Part shown: piece after piece, positions 22,061 through 29,066 of the stretch
Numbering within the stretch: the stretch's first letter is position 1
Layout: each line of letters begins with the position of its first letter
Assembly (NCBI GenBank): GCA_030154085.1
Contig: JASKKR010000022.1
Location: forward strand, 1-36,349
Direction of reading: 5' to 3'
Source: Candidatus Cloacimonadota bacterium
Lineage (GTDB): Bacteria; Cloacimonadota; Cloacimonadia; Cloacimonadales; Cloacimonadaceae
DNA length: 36,349 nt
Program-made: the position numbers and the translations under genes
The notes under the pieces: model-generated
What the model was told of the DNA's origin: nothing
Database searches by the model: none
Seen by the model: only the letters and a program-made list of their open reading frames with translations

Positions 22061-23191
22061 CTAAAGTTCATCGTCCGTATCAACGATGTTTGCCATAAAC
22101 CTGCGATCATGACGGTCGAATATGATTACTAAAACGATTGCTAAGATCAAAATGATCAAGCAAATGGCAGAAACAGTGACGTTGTGGATGGTGGAACTAA
22201 AGACAGTTCCTTCTCCAACTACTGGTTTGTGGTCTAGGGAAAGGTTAAGCTGATATTTATTAGCCCAACGGATAATGCGGCGGATATGTAAGACAGGGAC
22301 ATTACGTTTCGCCATCTTCATCATCACGCCTTCACGCTCAAAATTTTTCTCGGCGAGCTTAGTATTAAGCCCTTCTGGGATCAAATTGGCATTTGTTTCA
22401 CTTCCTACATTTGCAATGCCACTGCCGATATTTACGAAGAGATGATAGCGACCCTCTCCTCCAAGCATGCGGTCATAGGCTTCCATATGCAAATCTACGC
22501 TTTCCTCCAGACTGCTGCCGTAGATCAGCGGGACATTGTTTCGAGCCATAGCTTCACGGAGAGCATTAATGCCATTTTCGGTCAATCCGATACCACGATC
22601 TTCACTGCCGCCAATGGAGGCGTAGCTGGAACCAAAGCTGAGGAGTCCCTTCTCCCGAAGAATTGCTTCCATATCAAGCCAAGTAAGCTCTTCTCGGTTT
22701 GCACCATAAGAAGCAGAGGATAGGGAGACGATGATCTTTGGATCCAATTCTAGCACGGTAATAGCTGCATATAATGCAAGATTAACAGCGGGATTGCTAC
22801 CCGTGATACCGACGGCGATCTTGTCTCCACTGCTGGCACGACGACTGAGCTCTTCTACGAATATCGCAGCGATGTTTGGATTGATGGCTGCTTGCTTTTC
22901 GGAAAGCAATCCTCTATCGGTTGTTATGGAGCTCAAGCGAGGACCGATCAAGCCAGTTTGAAACGGATCATTGATGGGGTCGATTTCAATATTTCGTGCA
23001 CGAATCTCGGTGGTGAGAGCATCAATATATTCCTGCATAAGGTTTACAGCTGCGAGTTTTTGTTCATAATTATCAGTACGGATCTCTACATAACTATTTG
23101 CCGCGATCAAATACAAAATAATAGATAAAACCAAAAGCAGGATCAGAGACCAGCCGGATTTGAGACTTGGGCGATACATTTTGTTATACAT
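22061..23191 (-). CDS. pgsW: Poly-gamma-glutamate system protein (PgsW type)
   Basis: A 376-aa inner-membrane protein with one transmembrane helix near residues 14-32, a large outer domain, and a second helix near the C-terminus (VSAICLIILILAIVLVIIF). It matches the poly-gamma-glutamate system protein family, which accompanies PgsB/PgsC in many non-Bacillus genomes and replaces PgsA in those loci. Typical segments are VGITGSNPAVNLALYAA, ASYGANREELTWLDME and FVNIGSGIANVG. I placed the start at 23191, where GGGGAGG lies 6-7 bases upstream at the end of pgsC. A longer frame to 23215 would overlap pgsC further. The exact reaction of PgsW is not established. Confidence 0.85.
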   Translation of the reverse strand: MYNKMYRPSLKSGWSLILLLVLSIILYLIAANSYVEIRTDNYEQKLAAVNLMQEYIDALTTEIRARNIEIDPINDPFQTGLIGPRLSSITTDRGLLSEKQAAINPNIAAIFVEELSRRASSGDKIAVGITGSNPAVNLALYAAITVLELDPKIIVSLSSASYGANREELTWLDMEAILREKGLLSFGSSYASIGGSEDRGIGLTENGINALREAMARNNVPLIYGSSLEESVDLHMEAYDRMLGGEGRYHLFVNIGSGIANVGSETNANLIPEGLNTKLAEKNFEREGVMMKMAKRNVPVLHIRRIIRWANKYQLNLSLDHKPVVGEGTVFSSTIHNVTVSAICLIILILAIVLVIIFDRHDRRFMANIVDTDDEL

Positions 23192-23192
23192 C

Positions 23193-23648
23193 TCAGACCT
23201 CCCCACCAAAAACAACAGTTAGCACAAGTCTGACTAAAACAGCGGCAACTCCCATCGTGGAAACAGTCTTCCAAAATCCTTGACGCTCAAACCAGTTTGC
23301 AATTAATCCCGGCACGATATAGCCGATAGATTGCATTTGCAATTGGTGAATAGTGATTTCTTGAATTACCATGATCCGAGAAACCCAACCCAAGATAAAG
23401 CCGATCAAGATGCTGAGGACCATTCTGCGCTTGCCAAAAAGCAATGTAAATTGACCAATCAGGCGGATAAACCCCCAAGTAAGCAAACTAATTATTAATG
23501 TTCCCAAAATCTGAAGAGGTTTATCTAGATAAAGAGCGATATATCCCGGAACAACTATTCCTCCGGCAGAAGCGCCCAATAATTCAGAAAAGACCAGACT
23601 GATAATAACGCCGATTCCTACTGCGGCTTGTACTACTGCATCAACCAC
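23193..23648 (-). CDS. pgsC: Poly-gamma-glutamate synthesis membrane protein PgsC/CapC
   Basis: A 151-aa polytopic membrane protein with four to five hydrophobic helices, the normal PgsC length. Family hallmarks are GIVVPGYIALYLDKP near residues 30-44, an RLIGQFTLLFGKRRM stretch, and GYIVPGLIANWFERQG in the second half. With PgsB it forms the membrane synthase for poly-gamma-glutamate. The GTG start has AAGGAG six bases upstream and overlaps pgsB by 8 bp. The stop is one base before pgsW, so the three genes are translationally linked. Confidence 0.92.
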   Translation of the reverse strand: MVDAVVQAAVGIGVIISLVFSELLGASAGGIVVPGYIALYLDKPLQILGTLIISLLTWGFIRLIGQFTLLFGKRRMVLSILIGFILGWVSRIMVIQEITIHQLQMQSIGYIVPGLIANWFERQGFWKTVSTMGVAAVLVRLVLTVVFGGEV

Positions 23649-24834
23649 GATCAGCTCCTTTATTTGCTTTTGGTATTTTATGTTTAAAATGCGCTACAAT
23701 CTGAGCGCCATATTTAAAATCTCCGGCTATATTGCCAATTCCTAATACATGAGATTCATCGCGAGTGAGTTCCCAAACTTTCTGATAGATTTTTTCTGTA
23801 ACGGGCTGTCCCATGGGGAAGATTTTTTCAGGTGGTATCTTTTTGCTTAAAGCATAATTCTCTACTTTCTCGGGGATCTCACCAGTGAGGAGAAGAAAGT
23901 CATAGTCCACAGATACCAAAGCATCAATTAGTTGTTGGGATCTAAAGAGGCGATCTGCGCGGCTATTTAATATGATGATGGTTTCTGTGTTTTTAAGATG
24001 ACCAGTCACCATATTAATGATATAAACTGTAGATTCCGGATCATTAGCAGCAAAGACATTGTAAAAATTGATCTCTTTTCCGCGGTCGATAATGTGATAT
24101 TTCTTAAGTGCTCCAGGATCCGGATGAGCTTCTTGCATTCCCTTTAAAGCTACATCTCGGGGGATTCCTACTTCTGCACATACGGCAAGAGCAAGCTGAA
24201 CATTTTCTTTGTGCTCGATGTAGTGAAACTTCGCTAATTCTTCAGGAGTTACATCAGTTGGAAGAATCTGGTGAATCTGAGTCTTGCGGCTGTTTGCAAC
24301 TTTCTGAAGTATCTTAAATTGAGGTACTTCAGATGTATAGCAGACTCCCCCATGTGGAATGGTGTTGGATAAACTCATCGTCACACTGTGGACAGAATTA
24401 CCCATCAAGTCCAAGTGATCAGGGCGACAATTTGTAATCACTGAGATGGTGCTTTTTACAAATTTCCTTTCCGTAATCCACTGGAATACTGGATTTACTG
24501 CCATACATTCGATTACGATTGCATCGGGCTTCTTTTTTGCAGCATAACGGAATATATATTTCTGTTCTATGATGTTTGCCCCTTGCAAGCGTATAATTGC
24601 AGCCTCTCTACCGTCTTCCAATACCATGCGCGGTAGAGTGCCTGTGGTTTTTGCTAAAGTCTTCTTTCCACCAGCTCTAAGCCCTGCTGCAATTAACCTA
24701 GTTACGCTAGATTTTCCCCTAGTTCCATTTACATGAATGCGGATGGGAATCGAGGCTACATTTCGGCAGTGGCGATGATACTCCCAAGCCCAGTATAAGA
24801 TCAGGACCAAGGTCGCTGTGATCAATAATGTCAT
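23641..24834 (-). CDS. pgsB: Poly-gamma-glutamate ligase PgsB/CapB
   Basis: A 397-aa ATP-dependent amide ligase of the Mur ligase superfamily that links glutamate through the gamma-carboxyl. An N-terminal membrane helix (about residues 3-17) is followed by the ATP loop HVNGTRGKSSVTR at 34-46. Further PgsB signatures are IVIECMAVNP and ITNCRPDHLDLMG in the middle and LGIGNIAGDFKYG near the end. GAGGAA stands upstream of the ATG. It is the first gene of an operon with pgsC, pgsW and four more genes. The polymer could be capsule-like, released, or an osmolyte. Confidence 0.93.
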   Translation of the reverse strand: MTLLITATLVLILYWAWEYHRHCRNVASIPIRIHVNGTRGKSSVTRLIAAGLRAGGKKTLAKTTGTLPRMVLEDGREAAIIRLQGANIIEQKYIFRYAAKKKPDAIVIECMAVNPVFQWITERKFVKSTISVITNCRPDHLDLMGNSVHSVTMSLSNTIPHGGVCYTSEVPQFKILQKVANSRKTQIHQILPTDVTPEELAKFHYIEHKENVQLALAVCAEVGIPRDVALKGMQEAHPDPGALKKYHIIDRGKEINFYNVFAANDPESTVYIINMVTGHLKNTETIIILNSRADRLFRSQQLIDALVSVDYDFLLLTGEIPEKVENYALSKKIPPEKIFPMGQPVTEKIYQKVWELTRDESHVLGIGNIAGDFKYGAQIVAHFKHKIPKANKGADRG

Positions 24835-25651: not shown

Positions 25652-26794
25652 TTATTGAGCCAAACTAATCTTACTTTCCATCATCCTGTGTATGTCCAAG
25701 TGTGAGTAGAAATCACTATATTCTTGGATCAAATCTGCAAACAACTCTTTGACGGTTGTAATTTTTTTCACCAGATAAGCATTAGCACCTGCAAAAGCAA
25801 AGCCAGCTGTCATCTTGCCATTTCTGGCATTTTGTAAGGCTCGAGCTATGCAATAAGGAGTATTTCTAAAGTCGCAGGTTTTCAGGCATTTCCAGGGGCA
25901 AACAAATGGTTTTTTGATGCCTTCGGTGACGTCCATGAGAAATTGGTTATTAATAGCTCTTCCTGGCATACCTACGGGACTTTTTATGATCACGATGTCA
26001 TCTTGTTTGCAATTTATAAACAGTTCTTTAAATGCTTCGTTGGCATCACATTCTTCTGTGGCAACAAAACGTGTTCCCATTTGAACACCATCTGCACCCA
26101 ACTTCATAATCCTAGCTATATCCGCACCAGTGAATATTCCTCCGGCAGCAATAAGTGGGATTATTTTGGAGTATTTTTCTTCAACTTTTTGTACTTCTTG
26201 CTTTACTTGAGGCAAGAGCTCTTCCAGGCTATATGTTTTGTCAAAGATTTGTTCTAGTTTGAAACCTAGATGTCCACCTGCCTTGGGACCTTCCAGAATT
26301 ACCAGATCAGGAATGCGATTAAAGTGCTCAGCCCAATGATTGAGGATGATCTTTGCTGCTCTGCTAGAACTGACGATGATGCCGATCTTAGATGGTGCAT
26401 TTTGAAGATAATCCAGTGTCATAGTGGAGGGCAGTCTTAGCGGTAATCCTGCACCTAAGATCACGATATCCGCCTTTTCCTCAAAGCTGGCTTTGATCAG
26501 ATCGTCAAAATCTGATACAGCATACATAATATTGACACCGATAATGCCATCACTTTTACGGCGTGCAGCCCGTATTTCTTCTTTCAAAGCTGTGGCATTT
26601 GCTTCCTTGTAGCTCAAACCTTTTTGAGGGTGCAGAACGCCTAATCCCAAGGAAGATATGACTCCAATACCACCTTCGTTTGCCACGGCTGCTGCTAAAT
26701 TACTTAGGGATATTCCAACGCCCATTCCGCCTTGGATAATGGGGACTTTGGCGATCAAATCGCCTATTTTCAGGTGGGGCATTTTTATATGCAT
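25652..26794 (-). CDS. Nitronate monooxygenase / FabK-like flavoprotein with Cys cluster
   Basis: A 380-aa FMN-dependent TIM-barrel protein of the 2-nitropropane dioxygenase/FabK group. The N-terminal IIQGGMGVGIS at 19-29, EGPKAGGHLGF at 168-178 with the active-site His, IAAGGIFTGADI at 215-225 and GADGVQMGTRFVATEE at 233-248 are family signatures. Such proteins oxidise nitronates or act as enoyl-ACP reductase, and sequence does not decide between them. Unusual is a C-terminal cysteine group, C299, C303, C307 and C315, inside a segment with KCLKTCDFRNTPYC, which could hold an iron-sulfur cluster. It is a single gene with a fairly long upstream gap. Confidence 0.85.
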   Translation of the reverse strand: MHIKMPHLKIGDLIAKVPIIQGGMGVGISLSNLAAAVANEGGIGVISSLGLGVLHPQKGLSYKEANATALKEEIRAARRKSDGIIGVNIMYAVSDFDDLIKASFEEKADIVILGAGLPLRLPSTMTLDYLQNAPSKIGIIVSSSRAAKIILNHWAEHFNRIPDLVILEGPKAGGHLGFKLEQIFDKTYSLEELLPQVKQEVQKVEEKYSKIIPLIAAGGIFTGADIARIMKLGADGVQMGTRFVATEECDANEAFKELFINCKQDDIVIIKSPVGMPGRAINNQFLMDVTEGIKKPFVCPWKCLKTCDFRNTPYCIARALQNARNGKMTAGFAFAGANAYLVKKITTVKELFADLIQEYSDFYSHLDIHRMMESKISLAQ

Positions 26795-27074: not shown

Positions 27075-27392
27075 TCAATTGATAACTTTTTCCACCGGTA
27101 GTAAGTAAATGGCTGCCAGCTTCTTGCCTAAGAGATCTAGACCAGAATTTTTCAACTCTTCTAGGGCAAATGATACATCTTCTTCTTCCGCTGTGCCCAT
27201 GATCACGTTTCCGTAGCCGGTTTTGAGGGCAGCGCTTTCCTGAAAGCTGACAAAGAGCGGAATATCGTAGAGAATCTTTTGTCCCAAGCTTTCTCCTGAG
27301 AGTACGATAGTATCTTCGATTCCTGCTTCTGCCAAAGCCAGGATCACATCATCAAGGTATTTATCGTTAAACAGATGTAATATCATATACAT
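27075..27392 (-). CDS. Small PII-like (ferredoxin-fold) regulatory protein
   Basis: A 105-aa cytosolic protein. The pattern of strand (MYMILHLFN), helix (DVILALAEAGIEDTIVLSG), loop, strand (NVIMGTA), helix (DVSFALEELKNSG) and final strand (KLAAIYLLPVEKV) resembles PII and PII-like trimer proteins that bind nucleotides and regulate transporters. The T-loop sequence is not recognisable, so the name is tentative. GGAG is upstream of the ATG. It is the last gene of a trio with a PTS EIIA-type protein and a CPA2 antiporter, 12 bp behind the latter, which makes control of that antiporter its likely job. Confidence 0.55.
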   Translation of the reverse strand: MYMILHLFNDKYLDDVILALAEAGIEDTIVLSGESLGQKILYDIPLFVSFQESAALKTGYGNVIMGTAEEEDVSFALEELKNSGLDLLGKKLAAIYLLPVEKVIN

Positions 27393-27404
27393 TTCAAAAC
27401 TCCA

Positions 27405-28604
27405 TTAATCCTTTACTTTCAGCTCGTTGGCACGGGATAGACCATATTTTACCAGGACCGGTCCGATCAACATGATCAGGAATGTAGTCGCCGTCATCAC
27501 GCTAATCACTTGTTTTGCTTGGTACATCAGTCCCAAATTACTTAAAATTTTAGCTGCTCCCAGGCTGAGTCCGATTGCTACACCGGCTTGAGAGAGCAGG
27601 GTAAAGCCAAGATTTTTGCTTACTTTATCTGGTACTTTAGCTAGATTGCCTCCCCAGCGAGCACCATAATATTTACCCAAACTGCGAAAGACAATGTAGA
27701 TCAAGATTACTCCAGCATAGTCTTTAATCATCCCAAAATCCAATTTGGTACCAATCAGGACAAAAAACATCAAATAAACTGGTGGCGACCACTGCGTAAG
27801 TGCATTGGTGAATTTTCGGGTGACAATGGTATTGCTGTTTGTCATCACAATCGCTGCACTCATGGTCAGCAAGATGGGTGAGATGCCATAAACCTCTGCT
27901 AACGAACACATGGCAAATAGACTGCCCAGAGAAAAAATGAGGAAAAGCGATTGCTCGTGCAAATATCTGCCTACGTTTACCAGAATGTAGCCAATTGAAG
28001 CTCCTAATACTATTTCCAAGATGATATCCCAGGAAGCTTGCAGTAGTGCGGTACTAACGCTGAGCTCATGTGAGCCTAACATGATTGCTGCCAATGGAAT
28101 AGCCAGAGAATATAAGATAAGAGCAAAGATATCATCCAAACCCATCACGGCAAATAGAGTGCTAGTGAGTTCTCCTTTGGCTTGATATTGGCGAATTACG
28201 TCAATAGTCCCGGCTGGGGCAGTGGCACATGCCAAAGCGCCGTAGATGATGCCCATAGGAATGCTTTTAAGAACAATGGCTGTAGCTATGCCAGTAAGTA
28301 AGAAAGCGATTCCAGCTTCCATACATACGATGATGATGATGCTTTTGCCCATCTTTCTGAGTTCATGAAACCGCAATTCGCTACCGACATTGAATCCGAT
28401 TAAAGATAGAGTGATAAGATTTACAAAGGAAATGCTATCCAGTTCAGTTTGGGATACAAAACCGACCAAAGATGGTCCAAAAAGTGCGCCTGTGATAATA
28501 TAGCCGATGATTACCGGAATCTTGGCATAGGCTGCTCCCCTTCCGGTAAGCAATGAAAAGAGCATACAAAGCCCCATGAAGGCAAGAATATGCGTTACGA
28601 TCAT
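27405..28604 (-). CDS. CPA2-type cation/proton antiporter
   Basis: A 399-aa inner-membrane protein with about twelve helices and no C-terminal RCK/TrkA domain. It matches the Na+/H+ or K+/H+ exchanger family CPA2: IPVIIGYIITGALFGPSLVGF early, a GFNVGSELRF helix, the ATAPAGTIDVIRQ helix break in the middle, and GLDDIFALILYS with the essential Asp pair. It exports Na+ or K+ in exchange for protons. Its ATG directly follows the EIIA gene stop with no gap, and the PII-like gene lies behind it. The lack of its own regulatory domain may be made up by these neighbours. Confidence 0.88.
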   Translation of the reverse strand: MIVTHILAFMGLCMLFSLLTGRGAAYAKIPVIIGYIITGALFGPSLVGFVSQTELDSISFVNLITLSLIGFNVGSELRFHELRKMGKSIIIIVCMEAGIAFLLTGIATAIVLKSIPMGIIYGALACATAPAGTIDVIRQYQAKGELTSTLFAVMGLDDIFALILYSLAIPLAAIMLGSHELSVSTALLQASWDIILEIVLGASIGYILVNVGRYLHEQSLFLIFSLGSLFAMCSLAEVYGISPILLTMSAAIVMTNSNTIVTRKFTNALTQWSPPVYLMFFVLIGTKLDFGMIKDYAGVILIYIVFRSLGKYYGARWGGNLAKVPDKVSKNLGFTLLSQAGVAIGLSLGAAKILSNLGLMYQAKQVISVMTATTFLIMLIGPVLVKYGLSRANELKVKD

Positions 28605-29066
28605 CTATTTGCTGCTTTTAAATAGATTGTATATACTTTTGGCATCCGGCGCTTCGTGGAGTTGTTTAACAAAATCAGGATTGCGAAGCCGCAGCATCAA
28701 ACGAGAGAGCAATCTGATGTATTCCTTATCCTGAGTATCGGATGCAACGATCAAGATTGCAATTGTGACTGCTTTGCCATCGTCGCTTCCAAAATCTACG
28801 CCCTTTTTGATGCGGGCGATACTTACTACGAAGTCGCTCGCATACTTGGTGCGTGCATGAGGAATAGCAAAGCCATTGCCTATCCCTGTACTACCCGCTT
28901 TTTCTCGGTCAAAAATGGCTTTGCGTACCTGGTCAAAATCAAGGATTCGATCGCTATCTTTCACCATGTCCAGCAATTGCTCCAAGAGCTCCTGCTTATT
29001 GGATACATCAAGATCTCTAATCCTATTTTCGGTAAGTATTGAAGATACTTCAAGCGTTTGATTCAT
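28605..29066 (-). CDS. PTS EIIA (PtsN/fructose-type) domain protein
   Basis: A 153-aa stand-alone EIIA domain of the fructose/mannitol/PtsN class. The phosphorylatable histidine is His70 in GIGNGFAIPHARTKY. The hydrophobic strand AILIVASD and terminal KQLHEAPD helices are typical. No EIIB or EIIC gene follows, which argues for a regulatory rather than sugar-uptake role. GAGAGGTGG lies before the ATG. As head of the operon with an antiporter, it may gate ion exchange in response to phosphorylation, as PtsN does for K+ transport in other bacteria. A TTGACA at 29129-29124 may be its -35 element. Confidence 0.88.
   Translation of the reverse strand: MNQTLEVSSILTENRIRDLDVSNKQELLEQLLDMVKDSDRILDFDQVRKAIFDREKAGSTGIGNGFAIPHARTKYASDFVVSIARIKKGVDFGSDDGKAVTIAILIVASDTQDKEYIRLLSRLMLRLRNPDFVKQLHEAPDAKSIYNLFKSSK

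Follow-up and report, generated by a model that had tools for sequence, protein, structure and literature searches.

A PTS EIIA gene and a PII-like gene flanking an antiporter gene suggest compact control of ion balance by two signals in the uncultured phylum Cloacimonadota

According to excerpts of a study on Escherichia coli, unphosphorylated PtsN, a phospho-histidine EIIA of a non-sugar phosphorelay, binds to YcgO (CvrA), a K+/H+ antiporter, and inhibits it, phosphorylation weakens this binding, and PtsN acts through the RCK and CorC domains that YcgO carries at its own C terminus (PMC11808508). Excerpts of a review report that proteins of the PII and PII-like kind bind transporters directly and thereby inhibit them, with SbtB-SbtA and GlnK-AmtB as cases in which a small PII-fold protein is encoded with its transporter, that this control appears restricted to transporters able to work as trimers, and that the secondary transporter LacS is controlled by a fused EIIA-like domain phosphorylated by HPr (PMC10710835). 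Here we describe a three-gene locus, or trio, that shares features with each of these systems. Like PtsN-YcgO it combines an EIIA with a cation/proton antiporter, and the control of K+ transport by PtsN, which the original prediction had mentioned, has its precedent there; however, the EIIA gene of the trio adjoins the antiporter gene, a PII-like protein is added, and the antiporter is without a cytoplasmic domain. The ptsN gene lies elsewhere in the E. coli genome, away from the YcgO gene. SbtB-SbtA and GlnK-AmtB involve other, trimeric transporter classes and have no EIIA partner, and the small protein of the trio lacks their P-II motifs. LacS, in turn, is a sugar transporter without a PII-like domain, and its EIIA-Glc-like domain belongs to an EIIA family other than that of the trio. 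Each part of the trio has a known parallel, but we found no description of an EIIA and a PII-like domain joined on antiporters, nor of cation/proton antiport controlled by a PII-fold protein together with a phosphorelay, in a search beyond whose reach most subscription journals lay.

The window (the whole stretch of DNA that was analysed, 36,349 nucleotides, contig C13) belongs to a 1.95-Mb Cloacimonadota MAG that is 99.75% complete. As the original prediction had it, an antiporter gene lies between the genes of a stand-alone EIIA and of a small protein. On the minus strand we observed, in this order, open reading frames for a stand-alone PTS EIIA of the fructose/PtsN type (153 aa, positions 28605-29066), a cation/proton antiporter (399 aa, 27405-28604) and a 105-aa protein (27075-27392). 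The EIIA stop codon is followed directly by the antiporter start, with a gap of 0 bases, and 12 bases separate the end of the antiporter gene from the start of the 105-aa gene. A promoter scan performed at chance level (9 sites found versus 9.2 expected); terminator-like sites were above chance (6 found versus 2.1 expected), and none of them lay just 3' of the trio on its strand. About 280 bases downstream of the trio, an NMO/FabK-like gene is encoded on the minus strand (25652-26794; PF03060, 184 bits; FabK model below its cut-off). A poly-gamma-glutamate synthase cluster is found on the same strand at 22061-24834, with PgsB scoring 406 bits against TIGR04012 (cut-off, 222.7); the two ORFs after PgsB resemble PgsC and PgsW by position only.

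The EIIA protein matched PF00359 with an E value of 1.1e-35 and 123.2 bits (cut-off, 27). His70 could be read directly in the sequence ...GFAIPHAR, in agreement with the earlier statement that it is intact, and the active-site histidine was kept in 144/144 EIIA rows with more than 90 aligned residues, a count that omits shorter rows such as L159 and the broken L039. The four solved chains that were found nearest to it by sequence are PtsN-type IIA proteins, and the protein scored 81.3 bits against the PtsN equivalog TIGR01419, below the cut-off of 138.7. A role as a sugar PTS subunit in the setting of the trio was ruled out, PTS_EIIC (PF02378, the sole EIIC family tried) being absent from all 121 phylum genomes searched.

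The antiporter matched PF00999 over residues 22 to 385 of 399 (E value 1.1e-29; 103.9 bits; cut-off, 26.2). No RCK, CorC or other Pfam domain besides PF00999 scored above its cut-off, and the chain ends at residue 399, which agrees with the original description of an antiporter without an RCK domain. The CPA2 label given to it there fared less well: the protein is an antiporter of the PF00999 family, and an Asp-Asp pair, which is linked to CPA2, was conserved in 129/133 and 132/133 of its relatives with more than 330 aligned residues, but the CPA2 model TIGR00932, although the best NCBIfam match, scored only 55 bits against a cut-off of 238.3, and the label is best regarded as tentative. The second NCBIfam match, PRK05326 ("potassium/proton antiporter"), was likewise far below its cut-off. 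Four solved chains were found by sequence, all titled Na+/H+ antiporter, which we take to be of the NhaP type. The transported ion may be Na+ or K+.

The original prediction had tentatively assigned the 105-aa protein to PII and had set beforehand a check of its PII/ferredoxin-like fold. The protein itself gave no match of note in Pfam or NCBIfam and no sequence match in the PDB. When 28 family members were compared with Pfam and NCBIfam, the best E values were 0.0049 and 0.0015, to unrelated families matched by one or two members each, and one member matched P-II at an E value of 0.062; a profile of the 28 members matched six PDB sequences, mostly repeat proteins, at a best E value of 0.028. 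We thus refer to a PII-like family that has no name in Pfam or NCBIfam. A chance ORF was ruled out by homologues in 75/124 phylum genomes by single sequence, the source genome included (74/121 by profile), and the domain is present in 39 of the phylum's 50 genera.

Two AlphaFold models were obtained, the first from four close sequences (pLDDT 62.7; pTM 0.52) and the second from three sequences led by a relative, L036 (pLDDT 71.9; pTM 0.67). Both predict beta-alpha-beta, a long and poorly predicted loop (about residues 33 to 61) and a second beta-alpha-beta, which is the ferredoxin-like topology of PII, with low to middling confidence and with the loop unresolved. In known PII proteins such as SbtB and GlnK, strands 2 and 3 are connected by a long loop, and the models place that of the 105-aa protein at this position, as in classic PII; the loop placement of PstA, according to excerpts of PMC6516651, differs. 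Foldseek returned PII or PII-like proteins in 49 of the best 50 rows for model 1 (best E value 2.8e-3, none at or below 0.001) and in all of the best 50 for model 2 (best E value 8.3e-4, the sole match below 0.001); rows for TT1020 were counted as PII on our assumption. In VIA, PII-like proteins ranked first for both models, with CPII at Z 8.9 (rmsd 3.0, 81 aligned) and SbtB at Z 8.6 for model 1, and with CPII and SbtB at Z 8.6 and 8.2 for model 2. These matches are support and not proof, since other, non-PII ferredoxin-like folds appeared within 1.4 Z of the best match (from rank 25 at Z 7.5 for model 1 and from rank 30 at Z 7.2 for model 2) and a Z under 8 may mean merely a common arrangement. 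Thus, predicted structures, Foldseek and VIA all agreed with the fold that had been named, and the 105-aa protein is predicted to be related to PII in fold.

Comparison at the level of profiles points in the same direction. Aligned with four P-II proteins from the phylum, a profile of 148 domains reached a score of 34.9 (86% probability), compared to a maximum of 16.8 among 100 column shuffles. The comparison was uneven by subgroup, with 78% probability for the split domains and 3% and 7% for the two fused groups. Against the Pfam family P-II (PF00543; cut-off, 25 bits), the 105-aa protein of the window gave no match, five scores for relatives ranged from 18.9 to 21.6 bits, and the domain was weakly matched in three fused proteins, below the cut-off. 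None of the 148 domains carried a P-II PROSITE pattern or the G-D-G-K core, which we take to be the P-II signature motifs, by a search whose positive control was weak (among the four phylum P-II proteins, PS00496 was found in 0, PS00638 in 2 and the core in 3). A canonical P-II (GlnB/GlnK) was rejected for the 105-aa protein on the missing PF00543 match and the absent motifs. The domain tree was poorly resolved. Because the protein resembles PII in fold and profile, yet falls below the P-II cut-off and lacks the motifs, we call it PII-like and not P-II. The domain is probably also related to P-II by descent.

The association was then followed across the phylum in 149 domain copies, drawn from the window and from loci fetched around homologue matches. 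This set leaves out L001-L036 (named duplicates or loci on the same contigs), L139 (a repeat of L092) and L140-L153 (loci of the source genome that served other questions), as well as L190 and L194, which were scanned and held no domain at threshold. In 136/149 copies, an EIIA and an antiporter were both encoded on the strand of the PII-like domain and no more than 1.7 kb from it, and in 99 of those 136 (102/149 overall) the EIIA and the PII-like domain share one open frame. The expectation that the EIIA-antiporter association would recur in other genomes was thereby borne out, mostly in a fused form. Among the 13 exceptions, two have an EIIA about 1.8 kb from the PII-like domain (L068, L081), eight are cut by contig ends (L065, L078, L079, L088, L096, L109, L136, L192), two are Mrp operons and one, L046, is a true exception, with EIIA and PII-like genes and no antiporter on the fetched stretch. 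The copies do not amount to 149 independent cases, since possession of a PII-like domain was the criterion by which loci were chosen, and close relatives account for many of them (99% identity for the G044 copy, for example). The genes occur in several orders: among 145 clusters, an antiporter followed by the fusion was seen in 77, EIIA-antiporter-PII-like in 31, the fusion followed by an antiporter in 12, EIIA-PII-like-antiporter in 5 and others in 20. Such shuffling argues for function over inherited order, though copies from related genomes are not independent.

Starting instead from the antiporters in 47 genomes that were at least 95% complete, we found that 61/115 PF00999 places above the cut-off lie on contigs with a PII-like domain, as a contig-level count in which a single broken gene contributes two of the 115. 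Twenty loci picked from the other 54 places comprised 8 that also have the EIIA-PII-like fusion and had escaped the first profile, 4 antiporter-EIIA fusions, 1 EIIA cut by a contig end and 7 with neither. From these counts, the pairing of antiporters with EIIA seems to be a main theme of the phylum. The other PF00999 protein of the source genome (L050 3647-5371, G000:C21; 574 aa) has a C-terminal EIIA fused to it, and similar fusions are present in other genomes of the phylum. They share with the trio a PF00999 antiporter and a PF00359 EIIA but differ in that the EIIA is on the antiporter chain and a PII-like domain was not detected.

Genes for EI, HPr and HPr kinase are adjacent in the source genome (L152 4191-7209, G000:C15), and this PTS is perhaps purely regulatory, as the PTS_EIIC search of the phylum would suggest. 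Two of the five EIIA domains of this genome go with antiporters, and another is fused with two CBS domains, its gene neighbouring those of a CitMHS/ArsB-like transporter and a TrkH transporter (L151 2646-6404, G000:C35). We infer that the EIIA proteins of this genome are regulators and not sugar carriers. Phosphotransfer control of the antiporter, as proposed originally, is made plausible by this relay and by the YcgO precedent in the excerpts of PMC11808508. Nucleotide control, the other half of that proposal, is conjectural, and the P-II motifs are missing from all 148 domains. A canonical P-II gave no match in the source genome and was above the cut-off in 3/121 phylum genomes; the source genome does encode a diadenylate cyclase domain.

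We consider it rather probable that the trio is an antiporter operon with a dedicated two-input regulator, made of an EIIA phosphorelay and a PII-like ligand sensor. HPr, fed by EI and gated by HPr kinase, would pass phosphate to His70 of EIIA, and the 105-aa protein would act as a PII-fold sensor of a small ligand, the first candidates being an adenine nucleotide or c-di-AMP. The diadenylate cyclase domain of the source genome would fit a c-di-AMP receptor, whereas the loop placement, unlike that of PstA, speaks against one. Its long loop, in which Pro45 was kept in 148/148 and Phe47 in 147/148 domains (from percentages; rows with 60 or fewer aligned residues omitted), would contact the antiporter or EIIA, the conserved Pro-x-Phe being the likely contact site. 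Most likely, unphosphorylated EIIA would keep the antiporter off together with the PII-like protein in one of its ligand states, and phosphorylation or a change of ligand would free it; the export of Na+ or K+ and the pH of the cytoplasm would in this way be linked to PEP and the energy status. The two proteins would thereby stand in for the missing cytoplasmic domains of the antiporter. Since this antiporter is without RCK and CorC domains, its contact with EIIA must differ from that of YcgO.

In a second reading, to which we give a low probability, the PII-fold domain is an adaptor that docks EIIA onto the antiporter, with the fold and loop kept and phosphorylation as the single input. The absence of P-II motifs from all 148 domains, the near-invariant loop residues and the shared open frame with EIIA in 102/149 copies would all fit an adaptor, as would the antiporter-EIIA fusions without a PII-like domain, which imply that EIIA needs no further partner to pair with an antiporter. 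However, the domain is found in 39/50 genera and forms a separate open frame in 47/148 rows, and the PII-like proteins SbtB and CPII have been solved with bound adenyl nucleotides, according to the structure titles. Less plausible still is that EIIA is a phosphate-dependent activator and not an inhibitor, or that the pair controls the stability or trafficking of the antiporter. The sign of control is not readable from sequence, and PTS-Ntr mechanisms for K+ balance appear to vary among species (excerpts of PMC13104625), but in the one direct precedent found for an antiporter, it is the unphosphorylated form that inhibits (excerpts of PMC11808508). That the EIIA and PII-like proteins merely share the operon of the antiporter and serve other targets, as the L046 locus and the EIIA proteins of the source genome that are not beside antiporters could suggest, is very improbable, because the association persists through several gene orders, in fused and split forms and with two antiporter classes.

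A two-input regulator of this kind would join two global signalling folds, the phosphorelay and PII, on one transporter. Antiporters of the PF00999 fold are known as dimers, which speaks against PII control of one if such control needs a trimer, and the trio would probe the reach of PII control beyond trimeric transporters; a solved complex of PII with the ABC transporter NrtBCD (structure title) already strains the trimer restriction. An EIIA::PII-like protein encoded beside an antiporter makes directly testable the part that PTS EIIA proteins play in K+ and Na+ handling where sugar PTS permeases are lacking. The trio also draws attention to the unnamed PII-like family itself.

The second antiporter class is Mrp (CPA3), which is distinct from PF00999, and in two genomes the pair is embedded in an Mrp operon. 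In L160 (1766-6382), the EIIA and PII-like genes lie between MnhG and MnhB matches, surrounded by MnhE, MrpF, chain-4L-type and Proton_antipo_M genes (all by Pfam); in L159 (1616-6185), a similar order was recognized by eye, with the pair between MnhG-like and MnhB-like genes. One tentative reading is that the EIIA and the new PII-like family form a portable two-input cassette, often as one protein, that would have evolved for the gating of more than one antiporter class (PF00999 and Mrp).

A search with one fused relative found no viral contigs and 153 plasmid records, all below 60% identity, and the annotated ones among the 20 plasmid matches listed were PTS IIA or fructose PTS genes; the plasmid search with the 105-aa protein of the window found none. 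Some copies of the module are irregular. L043 appears to be an antiporter-EIIA-PII-like triple fusion, in which the antiporter part covers positions 3 to 249 of the 375 of its model, and may be a deletion or an assembly error. L190 (3701-4045, G096:C14) holds an EIIA and PII-like remnant with internal stop codons, apparently a decayed copy. Finally, a 240-aa protein of the source genome (L149 5950-6672, G000:C1) has an apparent excisionase-type helix-turn-helix, judged by eye, followed by an EIIA domain, and could be a phosphorelay-controlled DNA-binding protein.
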